Positions 5,106-25,840 of a stretch of DNA of 64,000 bases are shown in pieces. Both the position numbers and the translations under genes were made by a program. Position 1 is the stretch's first letter. Each line of letters opens with the position of its first letter. The notes below the pieces were generated by a model that did not search any database, was not told the DNA's origin, and saw only the letters and a list, made by a program, of their open reading frames with translations. This stretch comes from Gemmata sp. (GTDB taxonomy: Bacteria; Planctomycetota; Planctomycetia; Gemmatales; Gemmataceae), in assembly GCA_025055115.1 (NCBI GenBank), contig JANWYJ010000033.1:62001-126000 (forward strand), given 5' to 3'.

Positions 5106-6998
5106 TTACGCCGAGCGTTTCGGCGGCTGGGCCCGTTGTAGTTGGCGAAACAGTTCGGCGGCCTGGTCGTCGTCGGCGGTGGCCAGTTGCTGTTTTACAC
5201 TACGCACAGCTGCGGTGGCTTTCCATTCCGCAAAGCGTTTCAACAGCCGGGTCAGCCATTCATCGCGGTCTTGCATCAATTGCCCAACCGGTTGCAGTTT
5301 GTACGCCGCGGCTTCAAACAAATCGGGGCGGTCTTCGAGCCGCACGCGCAAGTGTTCTAAATCCGGTACCAGCCCCGCATGATGGATGGCGTACAGTTCG
5401 GTCAAGATGCGGCGCAGTCCGGTGTGGGTGATCTCGGCGGGGCTGATCTGCGGGGCAGCGACGGCCACCAGGGCCGGATCGCCTAGGAGCAATTCCACCA
5501 ATTGGCGTTCCGCGGCCACCTGGGCGCTGACCTTGGCCGCTGTCCGTGGACGTTCGGTCGTAGGCCATGGCGCATCGCCCGCTGATTCCACGAACCCCGA
5601 AGTTGCGCGGGCGTTTTGCGGCTGGGATTGTCCGCTGGCCGCCGGGGCGGCCTGCTCCCGCAGCGTGGTTTCGTGAGCTTTGCGGAGTTCGCCGAAGCGG
5701 GCCCACACCGTTTCCTGGCGCAGCCCCAGCCGATGGGCCAGGCGGTTGATGATCAGTTCGCGTTTGACTTGGGCCGCGGCCCCCGGCTGAGGGGGCGCAG
5801 CAGCCAGAAGGCTCAAAATCTCGTCGAGAATGCGCCGCTGCTGTTGGTCGGAGGGCGTTGCCGTCTTCTCCAACAAGCGGTTCAGCTTGAAGTCCAAGGC
5901 ATCCGACGCCGAATTCAATATTCTCTGGAACGTCGCGACACCATCGGGGCGAACCAGCAAATCGCAGGGGTCCAGTTCGTCGGGCAGCGTGGCGACGGCC
6001 AGCTCCACGTCGTGGGCGATGAAGAGTTCCAAAGCCCGATCGACACCCAGGAACCCACCGGCGTCGGCATCGTAAACCAACACAACTTTGGGCACATAGC
6101 GGCGGAGCTGCGCGACATGTTTGGCGTTCAGCGCCGTTCCCATCGTCGCGACTACCTGAGCGATACCGCATTGGTGGGCCATCATGACATCGGTATAGCC
6201 TTCCACCACGGCGAGATAGCCGGCAGCCGCGCCGGCGTGGCGGGCCAGGTCGAGGCCGTACAGCAACTCGCTTTTGTGAAACAACGGGGTTTCGGCGGAG
6301 TTGTAGTATTTGGGTCCCCGGGCGGCCAAGGGCGAGGTGGGCAGAATGCGGCCACCAAAGCCGACCACTTGCCCCCGCACATCGCGAATGGGGAACATGA
6401 CGCGATCGCGGAAACGATCGTAGTAGCCGCGGCCACTTTGGCTGGGGGCAATCAAGCCCACTTCCACGAGCAATTCATCGGCTATGCCATCGGCTGCGGC
6501 CAGGCGAGCCAGCCAATCGCCTTGGAGGGGAGCGTAGCCTAAACCGAACTGCCGGATGGTTTTCCCGGCCAGCCGCCGTTCGCCCAGATACTGGCGTGCC
6601 GCTTCCCCCGCCTCCTCTTCCAACAATTGATAGGCATATTTGGCCTGCGCCCACTTCATCACTTCCAGCAACTGGCTGCGGTGTCGCTCGTGGGGGGAGG
6701 GTTGCTCATCGAGCTTGATTCCCGCACGTTGGGCGAGTATGGCCCGAGCCTCCTTGAACCCGACCTTCTCCATATGCATGACGAAGGCAAATACATCGCC
6801 TTGGGCGCCACACGACCAACACTTGTAGCGTTGCCGCTGCGGATCGACATCCAACGACGGCCGGGAATCCGGATGGAACGGGCACAGGGCTTTGAAGGTT
6901 TTTCCTGCGGGTTTGAGGGCCAGATAAGTACCAACGACAGCGACGATGTCGCTGGCGGCTTTGATTTGCTTGGTTTGCTCCACCGGGTCGAACGGCAC
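5106..6998 (-). CDS. dnaG: DNA primase DnaG
   Basis: Makes RNA primers for replication. 630 residues from the chosen GTG at 6998, which has AAAGGTG six bases upstream; an ATG 66 bp further upstream (7064) would add a poorly conserved extension. Zinc-binding CHC2 domain: C39, H42, C60, C63. The catalytic core and Toprim domain include VVEGYTDVMMAHQ (catalytic Glu) and VVLVYDADAGG (metal-binding Asp). The C-terminal 150 residues are helical and would contact the DnaB helicase. It is followed at 120 bp by rpoD and preceded by a leader of about 290 nt with a near-consensus promoter. Confidence 0.97.
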   Translation of the reverse strand: MPFDPVEQTKQIKAASDIVAVVGTYLALKPAGKTFKALCPFHPDSRPSLDVDPQRQRYKCWSCGAQGDVFAFVMHMEKVGFKEARAILAQRAGIKLDEQPSPHERHRSQLLEVMKWAQAKYAYQLLEEEAGEAARQYLGERRLAGKTIRQFGLGYAPLQGDWLARLAAADGIADELLVEVGLIAPSQSGRGYYDRFRDRVMFPIRDVRGQVVGFGGRILPTSPLAARGPKYYNSAETPLFHKSELLYGLDLARHAGAAAGYLAVVEGYTDVMMAHQCGIAQVVATMGTALNAKHVAQLRRYVPKVVLVYDADAGGFLGVDRALELFIAHDVELAVATLPDELDPCDLLVRPDGVATFQRILNSASDALDFKLNRLLEKTATPSDQQQRRILDEILSLLAAAPPQPGAAAQVKRELIINRLAHRLGLRQETVWARFGELRKAHETTLREQAAPAASGQSQPQNARATSGFVESAGDAPWPTTERPRTAAKVSAQVAAERQLVELLLGDPALVAVAAPQISPAEITHTGLRRILTELYAIHHAGLVPDLEHLRVRLEDRPDLFEAAAYKLQPVGQLMQDRDEWLTRLLKRFAEWKATAAVRSVKQQLATADDDQAAELFRQLQRAQPPKRSA

Positions 6999-7268
6999 GG
7001 GGACACCTTTCAAGGTGCAAGGTTCAAAATGACAGGTGAACGGCGAGAGCCAACTGCCCCCCATTCACACAGCATTTCTCCTTTTCTCACTCCAAGCGGT
7101 GGTCGGCCTTGGCGGTGGTCGGACAATCCCGGTATCCCCGGTGCTGTGGTGGAGCGGGCGAACCGGTGCGGCTCGCGGCGTCAAAGCCGGAGGGGGCCGG
7201 TAGTAATCGCCGAGTGGGGTGGGATGTCACGAGCGGTGCCGCGGCTCCTCTGAGCCATAAAGGTCGGT

Positions 7269-7286
7269 GCATCAATCCGTTGATGC
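7269..7286 (-). promoter_or_regulatory. Hairpin at the 5' end of the dnaG-rpoD leader
   Basis: A perfect 7-bp inverted repeat, GCATCAA and TTGATGC, closes a 4-base loop. It lies directly downstream of the -10 element at 7294-7299, so it would form the first bases of the transcript. Such a 5'-terminal stem can stabilise an mRNA or regulate it; the role here is inferred. The rest of the leader (6999-7268) contains no gene that I can support. Confidence 0.5.
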
Positions 7287-7293
7287 TTCGCGA

Positions 7294-7321
7294 ATTATAG
7301 CTCGTCGGGGGGGGGCGTCAA
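7294..7321 (-). promoter_or_regulatory. Sigma-70 promoter for dnaG-rpoD
   Basis: On the minus strand TTGACG (7321-7316) and a perfect TATAAT (7299-7294) are separated by 16 bp, a near-consensus housekeeping promoter. Transcription would start near 7287 and give a leader of about 290 nt before the dnaG GTG. The spacer holds a run of nine C on the minus strand. The region 7322-7606 on the other side holds no supported gene. Confidence 0.7.
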
Positions 7322-7606
7322 GGTCGCCTGCCCACCAAGATTTCCTCTCTTGTAAACCTAACCTACAAAACCATCTCCGGCCGTTCCCCTTCCCCCAGCG
7401 AACGCTCACCAGCCGTCCTTCCTCCCATCGGACCGGTGCGACTGCACTTTTCCTCCCTGCGAGCTTCGCGCCACTTCGTGTTTTCCAGCAGAATCGCCCC
7501 CCCCTGCAGTCTTGCCCCCACGCCCCAGACAATCCCCGATTGCCCCATTTGCCCAGTGTGGGTAAGCTGTGCGATAGATCCACTGCGGCTCGACACTGAG
7601 GCGACC

Positions 7607-19544: not shown

Positions 19545-22076
19545 ATGTATGAACGATTTACTGATCGTGCTCGCAAGGTCATGCAGCTGGCCAATCAAGA
19601 GGCGCAGCGGTTCAACCACGAGTACATTGGCACCGAGCATATTCTGTTGGGTTTGGTCAAGGAAGGCTCGGGTGTGGCCGCCAATGTCCTGAAGAATCTG
19701 GATATTGATTTGCGGAAAATCCGGTTGGAAGTGGAGAAGATTGTGCAGCATGGCCCCGGCGGCGAGCAGGTCGTGATGGGGCGTCTGCCGCACACGCCGC
19801 GGGCGAAAAAGGTGATCGAATATTCGATCGAAGAAGCCCGGAACCTCAATCATAACTATGTTGGCACGGAGCACTTACTGTTAGGCTTGTTACGCGAGCA
19901 AGAGGGCGTAGCGGCCCAAGTGTTGATGAACCTGGGTTTGAAGCTCGAAGACGTCCGCGAGGAAGTTCTGAATCTATTGGGTCACAACATGCCGAACGAA
20001 TCCGAATCGAGTGGCGGGCGTGAAGGGGGCGACCGGGGGGCCGCCGAACGCACGGGGCGAAGCCGCTCCAAAACCCCTGCACTGGATAGCTTTGGCCGCG
20101 ACCTGACCGAATTGGCCCGGCAAGGCAAACTCGACCCGGTCATTGGCCGGCAGGCTGAGATCGAACGTGTCATTCAAATCCTCTCCCGGCGGCAGAAAAA
20201 CAATCCGGTGCTGTTGGGTGAAGCCGGCGTCGGCAAAACGGCCATTGTCGAAGGTTTGGCGCAACTTGTTGTCGATCAAAATGTTCCGGAATTACTCCGC
20301 GACAAACGGATCGTCGTTCTCGACTTGGCCATGATGGTGGCCGGGACCAAGTATCGCGGCCAATTCGAAGAGCGGATCAAAGCGGTGATGAACGAGGTGC
20401 GGCGGGCCAAAAACACCATTCTGTTCATCGACGAATTGCACACCCTTGTGGGAGCCGGTGGCGCGGAAGGTGCCATCGACGCCTCCAACGTTCTGAAACC
20501 CGCCTTGGCCCGCGGCGAAATCCAGTGCATCGGGGCCACCACGCTCGATGAATACCGCAAATACATCGAGAAAGACGCGGCTTTGGCCCGCCGCTTCCAG
20601 CCGATCATTGTCAATCCGCCCTCCATGGCCGAAACCGTGGAGATTCTCAAGGGTCTGCGCGATCGCTACGAAGCGCACCATCGCGTGCAGATCACCGATG
20701 CGGCCCTCAAAGCCGCTGTGGAACTCTCCGAACGCTACATCACCGGCCACTGCCTGCCGGATAAAGCCATCGACGTGATCGACGAAGCCGGCGCCCGCGT
20801 CCGCCTCAAAGGGATGACCCGGCCCCCCGACCTCAAAGAACTCGACGAGAAGATCGAGAAATTGAATCAAGAAAAAGAAGCCGCGGTCATGGACCAAGAC
20901 TTCGAACGGGCCGCTCATCTGCGCGACCAGGCCGAAAAACTTCGCAAAGAAAAGGAATTCCAACAACGACAATGGCGCGAAAAAGCCAAGGAAACCGATG
21001 GCGTCGTCGATGAAGAAGTGGTCGCCGAAGTCGTTTCCAAGATGACCGGCGTACCCCTCAAGAAAGTCGGTGAAGATGAAACCAAGCGGCTGTTGAACAT
21101 GGAAGCCGAGCTGCACACCGCAGTCATCAGCCAAAACGAAGCGATTCACGCCATCGCCAAAGCTGTGCGCAAATCGCGCTCGGGGATGAAGGACCCGAAA
21201 CGGCCCATCGGCTGTTTCATCTTCGCTGGGCCGACGGGCGTCGGCAAAACCTTGCTCGCCAAGCAGTTGGCCAAATTCATGTTTGGCGATGAAAACAGTC
21301 TCGTGCAGCTCGACATGTCGGAGTACATGGAGAAGCACAATGTGTCGCGGTTGGTGGGCGCTCCGCCGGGCTATATCGGCTACGAAGAAGGCGGCCAACT
21401 GACCGAAAAGATCCGCCGCAAACCGTACTCCGTGGTGCTGCTTGACGAAATCGAAAAAGCTCACCCCGATGTCTGGAACATGCTGTTGCAAATCATGGAA
21501 GAAGGCCGCCTGACCGATAACGTCGGCCGCACCGTCGACTTCAAGAACACGATCATCATCATGACCACCAACATCGGGGCCGAGACGATCGTTTCGCAGG
21601 GGTCGATGAGCGACATTATGATTCGCGACCTCAAACGCGATACCGAAACCAGCTACCAGGACATGAAGCGGAAATTGAAGGAACAGATGGAAAAGGCTTT
21701 CCGTCCTGAGTTCCTCAACCGCCTCGACGATATCATCGTCTTCCGCCAACTGACCAAAAACGACCTCAAAGAAATCGTCAACATGGAGTTGGCGAAAGTC
21801 GCCAAACGGCTGGCGGATAAAAACCTCAAACTGGTGGTCACGGACGACGCCAAAGACTTCCTCATCGAGAAAGGTTCGAGCACTGAATACGGGGCACGCC
21901 CCCTGCGCCGGGCCATCGAGCAGCATCTCGAAGACATGCTCGCCGAGGAACTGCTCAAAGGCACCTTCCACGGCGCCGACACGATCACGGTCAAGGTCGC
22001 CGACACCGGCGGGGAGAAACGCCTGACCTTCGAGGCCAACGCGCCGGCGCCCGTACCGGCCACCGTCGGGTCCTGA
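19545..22076 (+). CDS. clpC: ATP-dependent Clp protease ATP-binding subunit ClpC
   Basis: Two-ring AAA+ unfoldase that partners ClpP. 843 residues. N-terminal pair of Clp_N repeats (1-145) with [15 protein letters not shown] and [15 protein letters not shown]. First AAA+ module: Walker [18 protein letters not shown]-like coiled middle domain ([20 protein letters not shown]), which distinguishes ClpC from ClpA. Second AAA+ module: [25 protein letters not shown]. The insertion [20 protein letters not shown] before [20 protein letters not shown] is also seen in other ClpC. No mcsA/mcsB/ctsR is nearby, unlike Firmicutes. A hairpin follows the stop. Confidence 0.97.
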
Positions 22077-22105: not shown

Positions 22106-22136
22106 GAAGGCTCCCGGCTTGTCTGCGGGAGCCTTC
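22106..22136 (+). terminator. Terminator-like hairpin after clpC
   Basis: An 11-bp perfect inverted repeat, GAAGGCTCCCG (22106-22116) and CGGGAGCCTTC (22126-22136), encloses a 9-base loop, 29 bp after the clpC stop. It is followed by GTGTGTTAGTG, not a T-run, so termination would be imperfect. Confidence 0.6.
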
Positions 22137-22180
22137 GTGTGTTAGTGTGAATGTATTCATGATGGATTGAGGCTTCGACC

Positions 22181-24259
22181 ATGAGTGACCCCCTCCGGGT
22201 GGCCATCGTCGGCGGCGGACTGACAGGACTGGTTCTCGCTCACGAACTGCGTCATCAAGGAATCGCCGTCACCCTCTTCGACACCCGCTTCCCCCTGGGC
22301 GGCCGCATCGACACCCGGACCATCCCTGTTCCCGGCATCGGCCCCGTCACCTTCGACCTCGGCTGCCTGTATCTCCATCCCCTTGGTCCCGGTGCTCCCG
22401 ACCCCCTGGTTCACAGGCTTCAGCCGGCGCCACTGCCCCCGGCCCTCAATCCCGGCGGGCAGGCCGGTGCAGGCGTGGCACCCCACGGCTGGATCCGCCC
22501 GCACGCCCGTGTCCCGTCGTCCTCACCCCACGGTCTGCCCGCGCTCGATTTTCTCAACTCCGTGCCTCTAGACTCGCAGGAGTGGCACCCGGTTCCCGTG
22601 GTCTTCGTCACCCACCAGGATTACCTCCATGGTTACGCCCTGTTCTACCCTCAACAGGGTGGGAGCAGCCGGCTGCTCGATCATCTGCGGCACTGCGGTT
22701 ACGACGAATACCGGCAGTTCTACACGCAAACCGAAGTGATCGCGCTGGAAGAACGCAACGGCCGATGGCGACTGCGGACCCGCTACCCGCGACCCGATGG
22801 CTCCGGATGGGAAAGTGGCGACACCTTCCTAGCGGATGCTCTTGTCCTGACGCAACCCGTGCCGCAAGCACTCGAACTCCTCGACGCCAGCGGTTTTATC
22901 TTACCCGATGGTCTGCGCGACGAGCTTCTGCGCGTGACATTTGCTCCCAGTCTCACACTCCTGGCCGTCACCCCGGCACCCACACGCATGCTCGAACCGG
23001 TCATGTACTTCCACACACACTCACCGGTCGAACTTCTGGCCGATCATCAGGCGATGGGAACTAGTACGCATGGCCCCGCTCTGACCGCGCAAGCCTCACC
23101 CCAGTGGTGCCGCGACTATTGGGACTTGCCCGATTCCGAAATCACTGCAACGCTACTGGCTGCCATCAACCCGTGGCTGACAGAACGACCGATTTGGTAT
23201 CAGTTGGTACGCCGCCGTTACGCGTACTGCCAGTCGCCCCTCAACCTACCTTTCGCGCAACTGACCCAGCCCCCCTTGTTCTTCGCGGGCGATTCTTTCG
23301 CCGCCTACGCTGGCCATGGCATTAACCGGGCCTACACTTCCGCGATTTACACCAGCCAGCGAATGACTCGGGTCCTCAGTGACGTGATGCGGCAACGGGG
23401 GGGCCGGCGACTCTCGCAACGCTGCCGCCTAGAAGTGGTCGTCACCACCCCCGAGGAAGCCCGTACTGCTGTAACCCGCGGTGCGAACCGCTTACTTCTC
23501 TGCTCCGCCTTGGAGCTGGGGGGATTGACTCCGTCACTGGCGTGTTTCCGGGCTGTTCGCCAGACGACTCAAGAAGCAACACACCATGGCCACATTCCGA
23601 TCACCGTGATGATTCGGCCACGCGGCGGCGGATTCTGCTACACTGACGACGAATTTGACCGGATGCAAGCCGAAGCCAAGCAATTTCTCGAAGAGGGCGC
23701 CGATGGGATCGCCTTTGGCATCCTGAAATACTCTCCCTCCTCCCTCCGCCAGGCTCACAACCCGGGGCGGGTGACGATAGACTTGGATCGGTGCCAGTTG
23801 CTCGTGCAACTCGCGAAATCTTATGGGAAAGAAGCCGTGTTCCACCGGGCGTTCGATTGTCTTGCCGATCGACGCAACGGGCTGCACGAACTGATCGTTT
23901 TGGGTTTTCAACGGGTTCTCACCTCCGGCGGAACACCGTTGGCTCTCGATGGCACCGGCGTTCTGGCTGCAGACATTCAATTTGCCGCTTGGGATATCGA
24001 CGTTGTTCCCTGTGGCGGCATCCGCACCAGTCACTTGGCCGCGATTGTCCAACACACGCACTGTTCACACATCGCGGCCTCATTCCGCCAAGCTGTCAAC
24101 GATGGTTCCTTCGTCGAGCGGCCTCGGTTGGCTGAGCAAATGGCTCGGACCGTTGATGGCTATTCGTACACTCTCAATGGTCCCGAGTTAATGGATGCCC
24201 GGAATGTGCTCGACCAGCTGCCCGCCCAGGGTCTTTATGGGATGAATGACGAATCTTAA
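22181..24259 (+). CDS. Fusion of a renalase-like FAD oxidoreductase and CutC
   Basis: 692 residues, one open frame with two unrelated domains. Residues 1 to about 405 are an FAD-dependent amine-oxidase/renalase-like protein: the dinucleotide motif VAIVGGGLTGLVLAHELR at residues 7-24, then GGRIDTR, and the C-terminal FAD contact FFAGDSFAAYAGHGINRAY. From about residue 416 to 665 the sequence matches CutC: RLEVVVTTPEEARTAVTRGA, LELGGLTPS, ITVMIRPRGGGFCYTDDEF, FHRAFDCL and RVLTSGG. CutC was named for copper tolerance, but its activity is unsettled. In CutC the LCxxLELGG segment usually starts RIELC; here it is RLLLC. I know no established role for this pairing. The ATG is 104 bp after clpC. The 3' end lies in a duplication shared with the convergent gene. 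Confidence 0.9.
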   Translation: MSDPLRVAIVGGGLTGLVLAHELRHQGIAVTLFDTRFPLGGRIDTRTIPVPGIGPVTFDLGCLYLHPLGPGAPDPLVHRLQPAPLPPALNPGGQAGAGVAPHGWIRPHARVPSSSPHGLPALDFLNSVPLDSQEWHPVPVVFVTHQDYLHGYALFYPQQGGSSRLLDHLRHCGYDEYRQFYTQTEVIALEERNGRWRLRTRYPRPDGSGWESGDTFLADALVLTQPVPQALELLDASGFILPDGLRDELLRVTFAPSLTLLAVTPAPTRMLEPVMYFHTHSPVELLADHQAMGTSTHGPALTAQASPQWCRDYWDLPDSEITATLLAAINPWLTERPIWYQLVRRRYAYCQSPLNLPFAQLTQPPLFFAGDSFAAYAGHGINRAYTSAIYTSQRMTRVLSDVMRQRGGRRLSQRCRLEVVVTTPEEARTAVTRGANRLLLCSALELGGLTPSLACFRAVRQTTQEATHHGHIPITVMIRPRGGGFCYTDDEFDRMQAEAKQFLEEGADGIAFGILKYSPSSLRQAHNPGRVTIDLDRCQLLVQLAKSYGKEAVFHRAFDCLADRRNGLHELIVLGFQRVLTSGGTPLALDGTGVLAADIQFAAWDIDVVPCGGIRTSHLAAIVQHTHCSHIAASFRQAVNDGSFVERPRLAEQMARTVDGYSYTLNGPELMDARNVLDQLPAQGLYGMNDES

Positions 24260-24354
24260 CACGCTCCGCCGTCAGCGATCGAGCGGCCCGTCACGGGTCT
24301 TTACGGGAATGAATGACGTATCTTCACCCGCTCCGCCGTCAGGGATCGAAGCGG
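24229..24354. repeat. Direct duplication bridging two convergent stop codons
   Basis: About 58 bp at 24229-24286 recurs at 24295-24354 with roughly 85 percent identity. Both copies contain GGGTCTTTA, GAATGACG and CGCTCCGCCGTCAG. Copy one contains the + strand stop TAA (24257-24259) of the renalase-CutC gene. Copy two contains the stop (24339-24341) of the minus-strand cytochrome gene. So the same sequence codes for the end of one gene in one copy and the end of the other gene in the second. Confidence 0.9.
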
Positions 24355-25790
24355 ATGGTCGGGTCTTTTTCCTGCATTCGGCGGCGATCGCCGGGATCGC
24401 CTAAGGCTTGCAGGAAGTGAACAATATCCCACAACGGATCGGGAGCACCTGCTGCGGTCTTCTTCAATTGCTCGTGAAATGCCGTCATGCCCGATGGCAC
24501 TATGCCGCCATACAACCGGGCGTAGAGGTCTTCCCCCCGTCCGCCCCCCCGATACACTCCCACAGTCAGATTCCGCGGTTGGACGATGGTGCCCCAGGCG
24601 TCCCATTTCAGCTGTGGGGCACGGCCATAATCGGCATGGCAACTCGCACAACCGAATTCCGCCGATTGATACAAACGAAAGCCTCGGATGGCCGAGTCGA
24701 TGCGCTCGTCTTCGGTGGTGAACGGTTCCGGCGGGATGGGAATAGGATTCTGGGCGGCGATGCCCCAATTGATGAGCACCCACAAGTAGTTCTGCATCAA
24801 CAGCCAGTCGAGTTCGCCACCGAAGAAGTCGGGATCGTCTTCGGTGAGTTTGCCGACATTGGTGATTTTCGCCATCGTCGCGAATTCCGTTTCACCGCGA
24901 ATACTCAGATGAATGACATAGCTGACCACGTCCTCGAGTTCTTGCGCGGTGAGGGTGGGAAACGCCGGCATAATGGTGCCGTTGATGCCATTGCGAATGA
25001 CGCGGGCCAAATCCGTGCGCAGGGGTTTTCCCGCGGCGCCTTGGCCTTTCTTTTTGACATTCGCCGGTGGGAAGGCCCGGGTGTATTTGAACAGCCCCTG
25101 CCGGTAATCCCGGGGCATCGGTCCATTGACAACCGCGTGGGCCGGTTCGCCTGCGCCAGAGGGTCCGTGGCATTGCATGCACCAACGGCGGTAAACGACC
25201 GATCCGCGGGCCAAGGTGGCGTCGTCGAGGCGGAGCTGATCCTGTGCGGCCGTCGCTGCGTGCCAATCGGTGTACCACACATCCCAGGGGAACGAGCGCA
25301 GGCGCGATTGCGCCGACTTCAGAATCGCTCCCAAGCTTTTTTTGCTCTCCAAGCGGACCGTGGCTGTGGCGACCACGGTTTCCCACGATGGCAGGCTGAC
25401 CCGCGGTGCAGCGGGGGTACCAAAATAAACCTCTAGCAGCCGGTTGATCCGATCGGCCTGAACCGGTTGAAGTAACGTCGGATCGGTGGGATCGAAGATA
25501 TTCTTGTTCAATTGCTTGCGGAGTTCGGCGACCAAATCGGCGTCGGGGCCGTGCGGATACAAGCGCAGGCTCCGTGTCGGTGGGTATCCGGGCGCATGCC
25601 AATGCGTCGGTGCCCCCTCGGGAATGGCGATGACGAGAAAATCTCTTCGCGGCGCATAACGCGCGGTGGGGAGAATGGTCGTTTCCGGCGTCGGGCTGTC
25701 GGTGGCAGCGGTGGGGTTGTCGCAACCGACGACCAGCCACGGTGCCAACGCCAGCATCAAACCCCGCAAGCGCAAGCAGAATAGTTGCAT
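24339..25790 (-). CDS. Di-haem cytochrome c lipoprotein
   Basis: 483 residues from the ATG at 25790; a TTG 21 bp upstream is also open. An N-terminal signal with the lipobox LVVGC predicts a lipid-anchored protein facing the periplasm. Two haem-binding motifs, CMQCH and CASCH, mark two cytochrome c domains, and a Met in GTIMPAFPTL is a likely axial ligand for the first. The remainder contains LYPHGPDADLVAELRK and a tail with GIVPSGMTAFHEQLK. An electron-transfer role is inferred. It overlaps the start region of the divergent PQQ protein gene, so the two promoters share about 50 bp. Confidence 0.88.
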   Translation of the reverse strand: MQLFCLRLRGLMLALAPWLVVGCDNPTAATDSPTPETTILPTARYAPRRDFLVIAIPEGAPTHWHAPGYPPTRSLRLYPHGPDADLVAELRKQLNKNIFDPTDPTLLQPVQADRINRLLEVYFGTPAAPRVSLPSWETVVATATVRLESKKSLGAILKSAQSRLRSFPWDVWYTDWHAATAAQDQLRLDDATLARGSVVYRRWCMQCHGPSGAGEPAHAVVNGPMPRDYRQGLFKYTRAFPPANVKKKGQGAAGKPLRTDLARVIRNGINGTIMPAFPTLTAQELEDVVSYVIHLSIRGETEFATMAKITNVGKLTEDDPDFFGGELDWLLMQNYLWVLINWGIAAQNPIPIPPEPFTTEDERIDSAIRGFRLYQSAEFGCASCHADYGRAPQLKWDAWGTIVQPRNLTVGVYRGGGRGEDLYARLYGGIVPSGMTAFHEQLKKTAAGAPDPLWDIVHFLQALGDPGDRRRMQEKDPTIRFDP

Positions 25791-25840
25791 TTTGTCGCCA
25801 AACCCCAACAATAATGGAGAGTCTTCACACAGGTTATTCT

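Follow-up and report, generated by a model that had tools for sequence, protein, structure and literature searches.

A renalase-like flavin domain fused to the front of CutC in Gemmata, and a divergent copy of the fusion with an altered CutC site

Results

The fusion gene and its surroundings

The analysed stretch of DNA, called the window in the following, comprises 64,000 nucleotides of a 132 kb contig from a Gemmata genome. Its forward strand carries a gene that combines a renalase-like flavin domain with a CutC domain, located between clpC and a gene for a cytochrome c-type protein. The following features were identified:

19545-22076, + strand: clpC, syntenic with the pseudogene locus of G017, the nearest relative of the window
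22106-22136, + strand: perfect 11-bp hairpin GAAGGCTCCCG/CGGGAGCCTTC between clpC and the fusion gene (sequence)
22169-22172, + strand: GAGG, Shine-Dalgarno-like, 8 nt 5' of the ATG (sequence)
22181-24259, + strand: renalase-like/CutC fusion gene, 692 codons from ATG to stop, single open frame
22181-23389, + strand: renalase-like FAD domain, residues 1-403 (Pfam, profile match, fold model)
22211-22228, + strand: GGGLTG, dinucleotide-binding GxGxxG motif, residues 11-16 (Gly invariant in the fused proteins)
22298-22306, + strand: GGR motif, residues 40-42 (invariant in the fused proteins)
22382-22711, + strand: low-confidence stretch, residues 68-177 (alignment, fold model)
23288-23293, + strand: Gly-Asp of the second FAD motif, residues 370-371 (invariant)
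23390-23425, + strand: linker, residues 404-415, after a long helix at 381-405 (alignment, fold model)
23397-23403, + strand: run of 7 G inside the linker, a possible spot for a sequencing error (sequence)
23426-24082, + strand: CutC TIM barrel, residues 416-634 (Pfam, fold model)
23495-23497, + strand: Leu439, Glu (strand beta-2) in 84 of 84 other CutCs (alignment)
24074-24076, + strand: Ala632, His (strand beta-8) in 84 of 84 other CutCs (alignment)
24339-25811, - strand: cytochrome c-type protein gene, syntenic in G017

An earlier note on this DNA had described a single frame joining both domains. This was confirmed, as both domain matches lie in the same frame. With Pfam, NAD_binding_8 (residues 9-69, 4e-12) and Amino_oxidase (155-395, 1e-11) were detected above their curated cut-offs. 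CutC (PF03932) was detected at residues 416-634 with 8.5e-42 and 143 bits (curated cut-off 23.3), covering profile positions 2-199 of 202. In a fold model of the whole chain, the CutC half matched human CutC 3iwp (TM on target about 0.8) and the flavin half matched renalase (TM about 0.65-0.76). Because few relatives were usable, this model is of low confidence at residues 68-177 and 627-665, the latter including the beta-8 region. The hairpin upstream of the gene is terminator-like without a T run and suggests that the fusion is transcribed separately from clpC.

In agreement with the earlier note, no characterised protein with the renalase-CutC combination was found in the literature searched; domain-architecture databases may list it. 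Both families are already known, and their combination appears to be a new variant.

Distribution and two clades of fusions

Of the 19 genomes of the genus, 14 carry a fusion with the two domains in this order and frame, one of them interrupted by a gap of N. The genus is the GTDB genus of the window genome, which includes Gemmata sp. IIL30. A fifteenth genome of the genus, G017, carries a broken copy, and the remaining four possess standalone CutC only. Two further fusion copies are located in G128, a genome from another genus of the family. N bases coincide with the frameshift in G128:C138 and with the gap in G010, and neither was counted as a lesion. No further fusion was detected among 392 genomes across the phylum Planctomycetota and 398 across the class. 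Outside Planctomycetota none was present among the matches listed in one genome-contig scan, and no relatives of the fusion were found on viral contigs.

Genomes with both genes as separate neighbours were looked for as well, and none was found. This applies to 36 non-Gemmata renalase-like loci, with flanks up to 6 kb, and to the standalone CutCs read, near which no separate renalase-like gene was located.

Open-frame length alone is weak evidence in G+C-rich DNA. Several standalone CutC genes of the relatives sit in open frames of 437-1100 aa, which are out-of-frame read-through. Other CutC "fusions" suggested by such frames were rejected, as their upstream parts have no domain match. Another in-frame planctomycete fusion (L078, 2216-3808, + strand; G360:C67) joins CutC (154-351) to a following GNAT acetyltransferase domain (366-487). 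A GNAT gene is also found 3' of CutC in some Gemmata loci.

The trees of both halves are concordant. All fused flavin domains form one clade (99/99) apart from all standalone renalase-like proteins; judging from this tree, the flavin half of all fusions has one origin. Clade II, supported with 100/98-99 in each tree, has only three intact members, namely the window copy, G006:C562 and G128:C2, and in the CutC tree it also contains the G017 pseudogene. Clade I comprises 13 fused copies, 12 of them from genomes of the genus and one from G128. These (e.g. L031/G003 and L032, the latter from Gemmata sp. IIL30) have the same architecture as the window protein and are mostly 35-38% identical to it. 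In the CutC tree two standalone CutCs, from G132 and G006, fall inside the group of fused CutCs. A grouping of the fused CutCs without these two was rejected in an AU test picked after the tree had been seen (p = 0.013). G006 possesses a standalone CutC beside an M19 dipeptidase gene (L080, G006:C478) and a clade II fusion elsewhere; the former has a long branch inside the fused clade.

Genome neighbourhood

All 13 clade I fusions are located directly downstream of an M19 (membrane) dipeptidase gene, unlike the window copy. The same position was observed for six standalone CutCs (G132, G101, G100, G131, G014 and G006). The pair of M19 dipeptidase and CutC or fusion is conserved in Gemmataceae (L003-L006, L008-L015, L070, L071, L072, L073, L074, L080, L096), and in several genomes it is followed by a protein kinase, a GNAT acetyltransferase or M16 peptidases. 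At the M19 locus of the window's genome and of G017 (L115, L116; G000:C11, G017:C2) M19 is followed by the kinase and CutC has been lost; kinase, acetyltransferase and M16 genes were read downstream in the window's genome. The sole CutC of these two genomes is the clade II copy between clpC and the cytochrome c gene.

The flavin half

A profile of the fused flavin domains was compared with the PDB. The three best sequence matches were bacterial renalase 4zcc (7e-19), its relative 3kkj and human renalase 3qj4 (4e-16), and the next family followed at 7e-10. With the fold model, Foldseek ranked renalase above protoporphyrinogen oxidase. Thus, the description of this domain as renalase-like in the earlier note holds.

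With the renalases (4zcc/4zcd/5krq, human 3qj4) the fusion shares the FAD-binding Rossmann fold, the GGR motif and the C-terminal GD; clade I also has the DK, K and W signature positions. The FAD motifs G11, G13, G16, G40-R42 and G370-D371 are intact in the window protein, and clade II as a whole retains the FAD motifs. The window protein differs from renalase by the fused CutC, by a long insertion and by the exchange of six out of six renalase-conserved residues. T35, S162, S257, M292, R345 and A388 replace K35, M162, C257, K292, W345 and G388, which clade I retains (with K or R at 292). In window numbering, K35, M162, C257, K/R292 and G388 are found in clade I and most standalone renalase-like proteins and are changed in all three clade II members. 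The low-confidence stretch at residues 68-177 contains a Pro/Gly-rich insertion, which is mostly missing in clade I.

The CutC half

The earlier note had called the CutC domain complete. It is of full length, but lacks a Glu/His pair that is invariant in all other CutCs examined. The 84 CutCs of this comparison comprise clade I, standalone planctomycete copies and four solved CutCs, with human and enterobacterial proteins included. The full-length barrel of the CutC structures (human 3iwp, Shigella 1twd/1x7i, S. agalactiae 2bdq, B. anthracis 4r9x) is common to the window protein, which keeps E418, R437, R479, R481, H555, R556 and D559. It differs from them as the C-terminal partner of a flavoenzyme and by Leu439 and Ala632 in place of the invariant Glu and His. 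Every other CutC column conserved to at least 95% is kept. All four clade II members lack the Glu (Leu, Leu, Phe and Leu at position 439), and position 632 is occupied by Ala, Leu and Leu, and by Val in G017, beyond the stop of that copy. Clade I keeps both residues. The beta-8 region is poor in both fold models, that of the window protein and that of a clade I member, with few relatives usable.

Positions 420 and 441 of the window protein presumably correspond to the CutC cysteines proposed for copper binding. The first is Val420 in the window and Ala or Gly in clade I, with Cys in human and Shigella CutC. At the second position the window has Cys441 and clade I mostly Ser. CutC of B. anthracis is without both of these cysteines.

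Decay and selection

The ortholog in G017 (L081, G017:C8:210000-224000, about 6068-7360) is a pseudogene at the same clpC/cytochrome site. It shows a frameshift in the flavin half, has lost most of this half and contains a TGA in the CutC half. Since most of the flavin half is missing there, dN/dS covers the CutC half only. For the CutC halves of the window and G017 a dN/dS of about 0.15 was calculated, with dS near saturation; the neighbouring genes gave 0.01-0.13. In the CutC tree the branch of the window is short (0.09) compared to that of the G017 pseudogene (0.30). In the flavin-half tree the window has a long branch (0.97). The dN/dS together with the short CutC branch indicates that purifying selection acted on the CutC half during most of the period after the two lineages separated.

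Discussion

Judging from the sequences compared, a renalase-like FAD oxidase domain was placed ahead of a CutC barrel by a single fusion event in the Gemmata lineage. The simplest history would be one fusion, a duplication before the two genera split and later losses of the flavin half. The window copy belongs to a relocated, fast-evolving branch. The flavin domain had been regarded as a permanent partner of CutC in the earlier note. This could not be upheld: standalone copies from G132 and G006 branch within the fused CutCs, four genomes have standalone CutC only and G017 lost most of its flavin half. In some lineages the flavin half was evidently lost, so the presumed joint function is dispensable.

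The fusion might have been created by faulty sequencing or assembly. A sequencing error was already a concern of the earlier note, and a reasonable one, since a run of 7 G lies between the two domains at 23397-23403, but the same in-frame junction was found in 15 further copies, intact or gap-interrupted, from independent assemblies, several of them single-contig genomes. Since the relatives share this junction, an error at this site is excluded as the cause of the fusion with near certainty. It was also considered whether the window copy is simply decaying, on the way to a pseudogene of the G017 type, and encodes a protein without a particular role. The lesions of the G017 ortholog at the same site, the long flavin-half branch and the dN/dS of the window CutC, the highest among the genes compared at the locus, would fit such a decay. 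Nevertheless, we regard it as unlikely. Both residues are also missing from the open frames of G006 and G128:C2, which are deep relatives, hence the loss of Glu and His is old. Furthermore, no other near-invariant CutC column has changed, the FAD motifs are intact, and a dN/dS of 0.15 is far from 1.

A further explanation is that the two halves are independent enzymes, or are partly made separately, and were joined by chance in an operon-derived polypeptide without functional link. It would account for the lineages of G132 and G006, which dropped the flavin half while CutC stayed by the M19 gene, as well as for the short and variable linker and the in-frame ATG (Met403) just before the CutC half of the window. 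In contrast, 12 genomes of the genus have kept a fusion of clade I, the two copies of G128 are fused as well, most clade I proteins have no Met at the position of Met403, and conserved residues of both halves were changed together in clade II. This explanation is somewhat doubtful.

The reading preferred here, to which we give an even chance, describes clade I as a bifunctional flavin/TIM-barrel enzyme linked to the dipeptidase and the window protein as a re-purposed duplicate, whose barrel would be without the usual CutC activity. The original copper phenotype of cutC was traced to MicL. Besides cutC itself, the cutC region of E. coli carries this small RNA (PMC8216713). The mode of action of CutC is still undefined, and human CutC, with its weak copper binding, was judged an unlikely chaperone (PMC11083455). 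The substrates of renalases are nicotinamide nucleotides in misreduced or anomeric form (2-/6-dihydro-NAD(P), alpha-NAD(P)H), which are oxidised with O2 (summarised in PMC9484957). In view of this renalase chemistry and the undefined role of CutC, clade I can fairly be read as a bifunctional enzyme for small molecules.

In such an enzyme, the renalase half would use O2 to oxidise a small substrate, perhaps a reduced nicotinamide-like compound. The CutC half would act on a related small molecule by the universal Glu/His/Arg/Asp site. The fusion would bring both activities together, and their pathway may include the M19 dipeptidase. As the Glu of beta-2 and the His of beta-8 are invariant and sited in barrel strands, we infer a catalytic rather than a structural role for them. 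Their joint loss throughout clade II, while nearly everything else was kept, points to a pair acting together in the CutC site. The clade II proteins, the window protein included, would still bind FAD. Without Glu and His the usual CutC reaction would be gone, and the barrel would accompany a flavoenzyme that acts on a new substrate, either as a structural partner or as one of changed specificity. The window copy would have been held by selection in its own lineage, while it decayed in the sister. A more far-reaching version is rather improbable: clade I would be a two-step enzyme, for instance for the repair or salvage of damaged nicotinamide nucleotides, the substrate class of renalase, with CutC as a small-molecule and not a copper protein. 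Clade II would then have discarded the Glu and His of the site, leaving the barrel as a non-catalytic partner.

CutC occurs from bacteria to humans, and what it does at the molecular level is still debated. Its natural fusion with an enzyme of known substrate class, at a conserved dipeptidase locus, leads to a concrete list of assays for CutC. The suggestion that the fusion is a clue to CutC chemistry stands for clade I, while the window protein is the wrong copy for this purpose, having lost the invariant Glu and His. Its ordinary relatives in clade I are the better guide to the role of CutC. A natural paralogue without two otherwise universal residues marks this Glu and His as the likely heart of the CutC site, and the contrast between clade I and clade II is more useful than the window gene alone.
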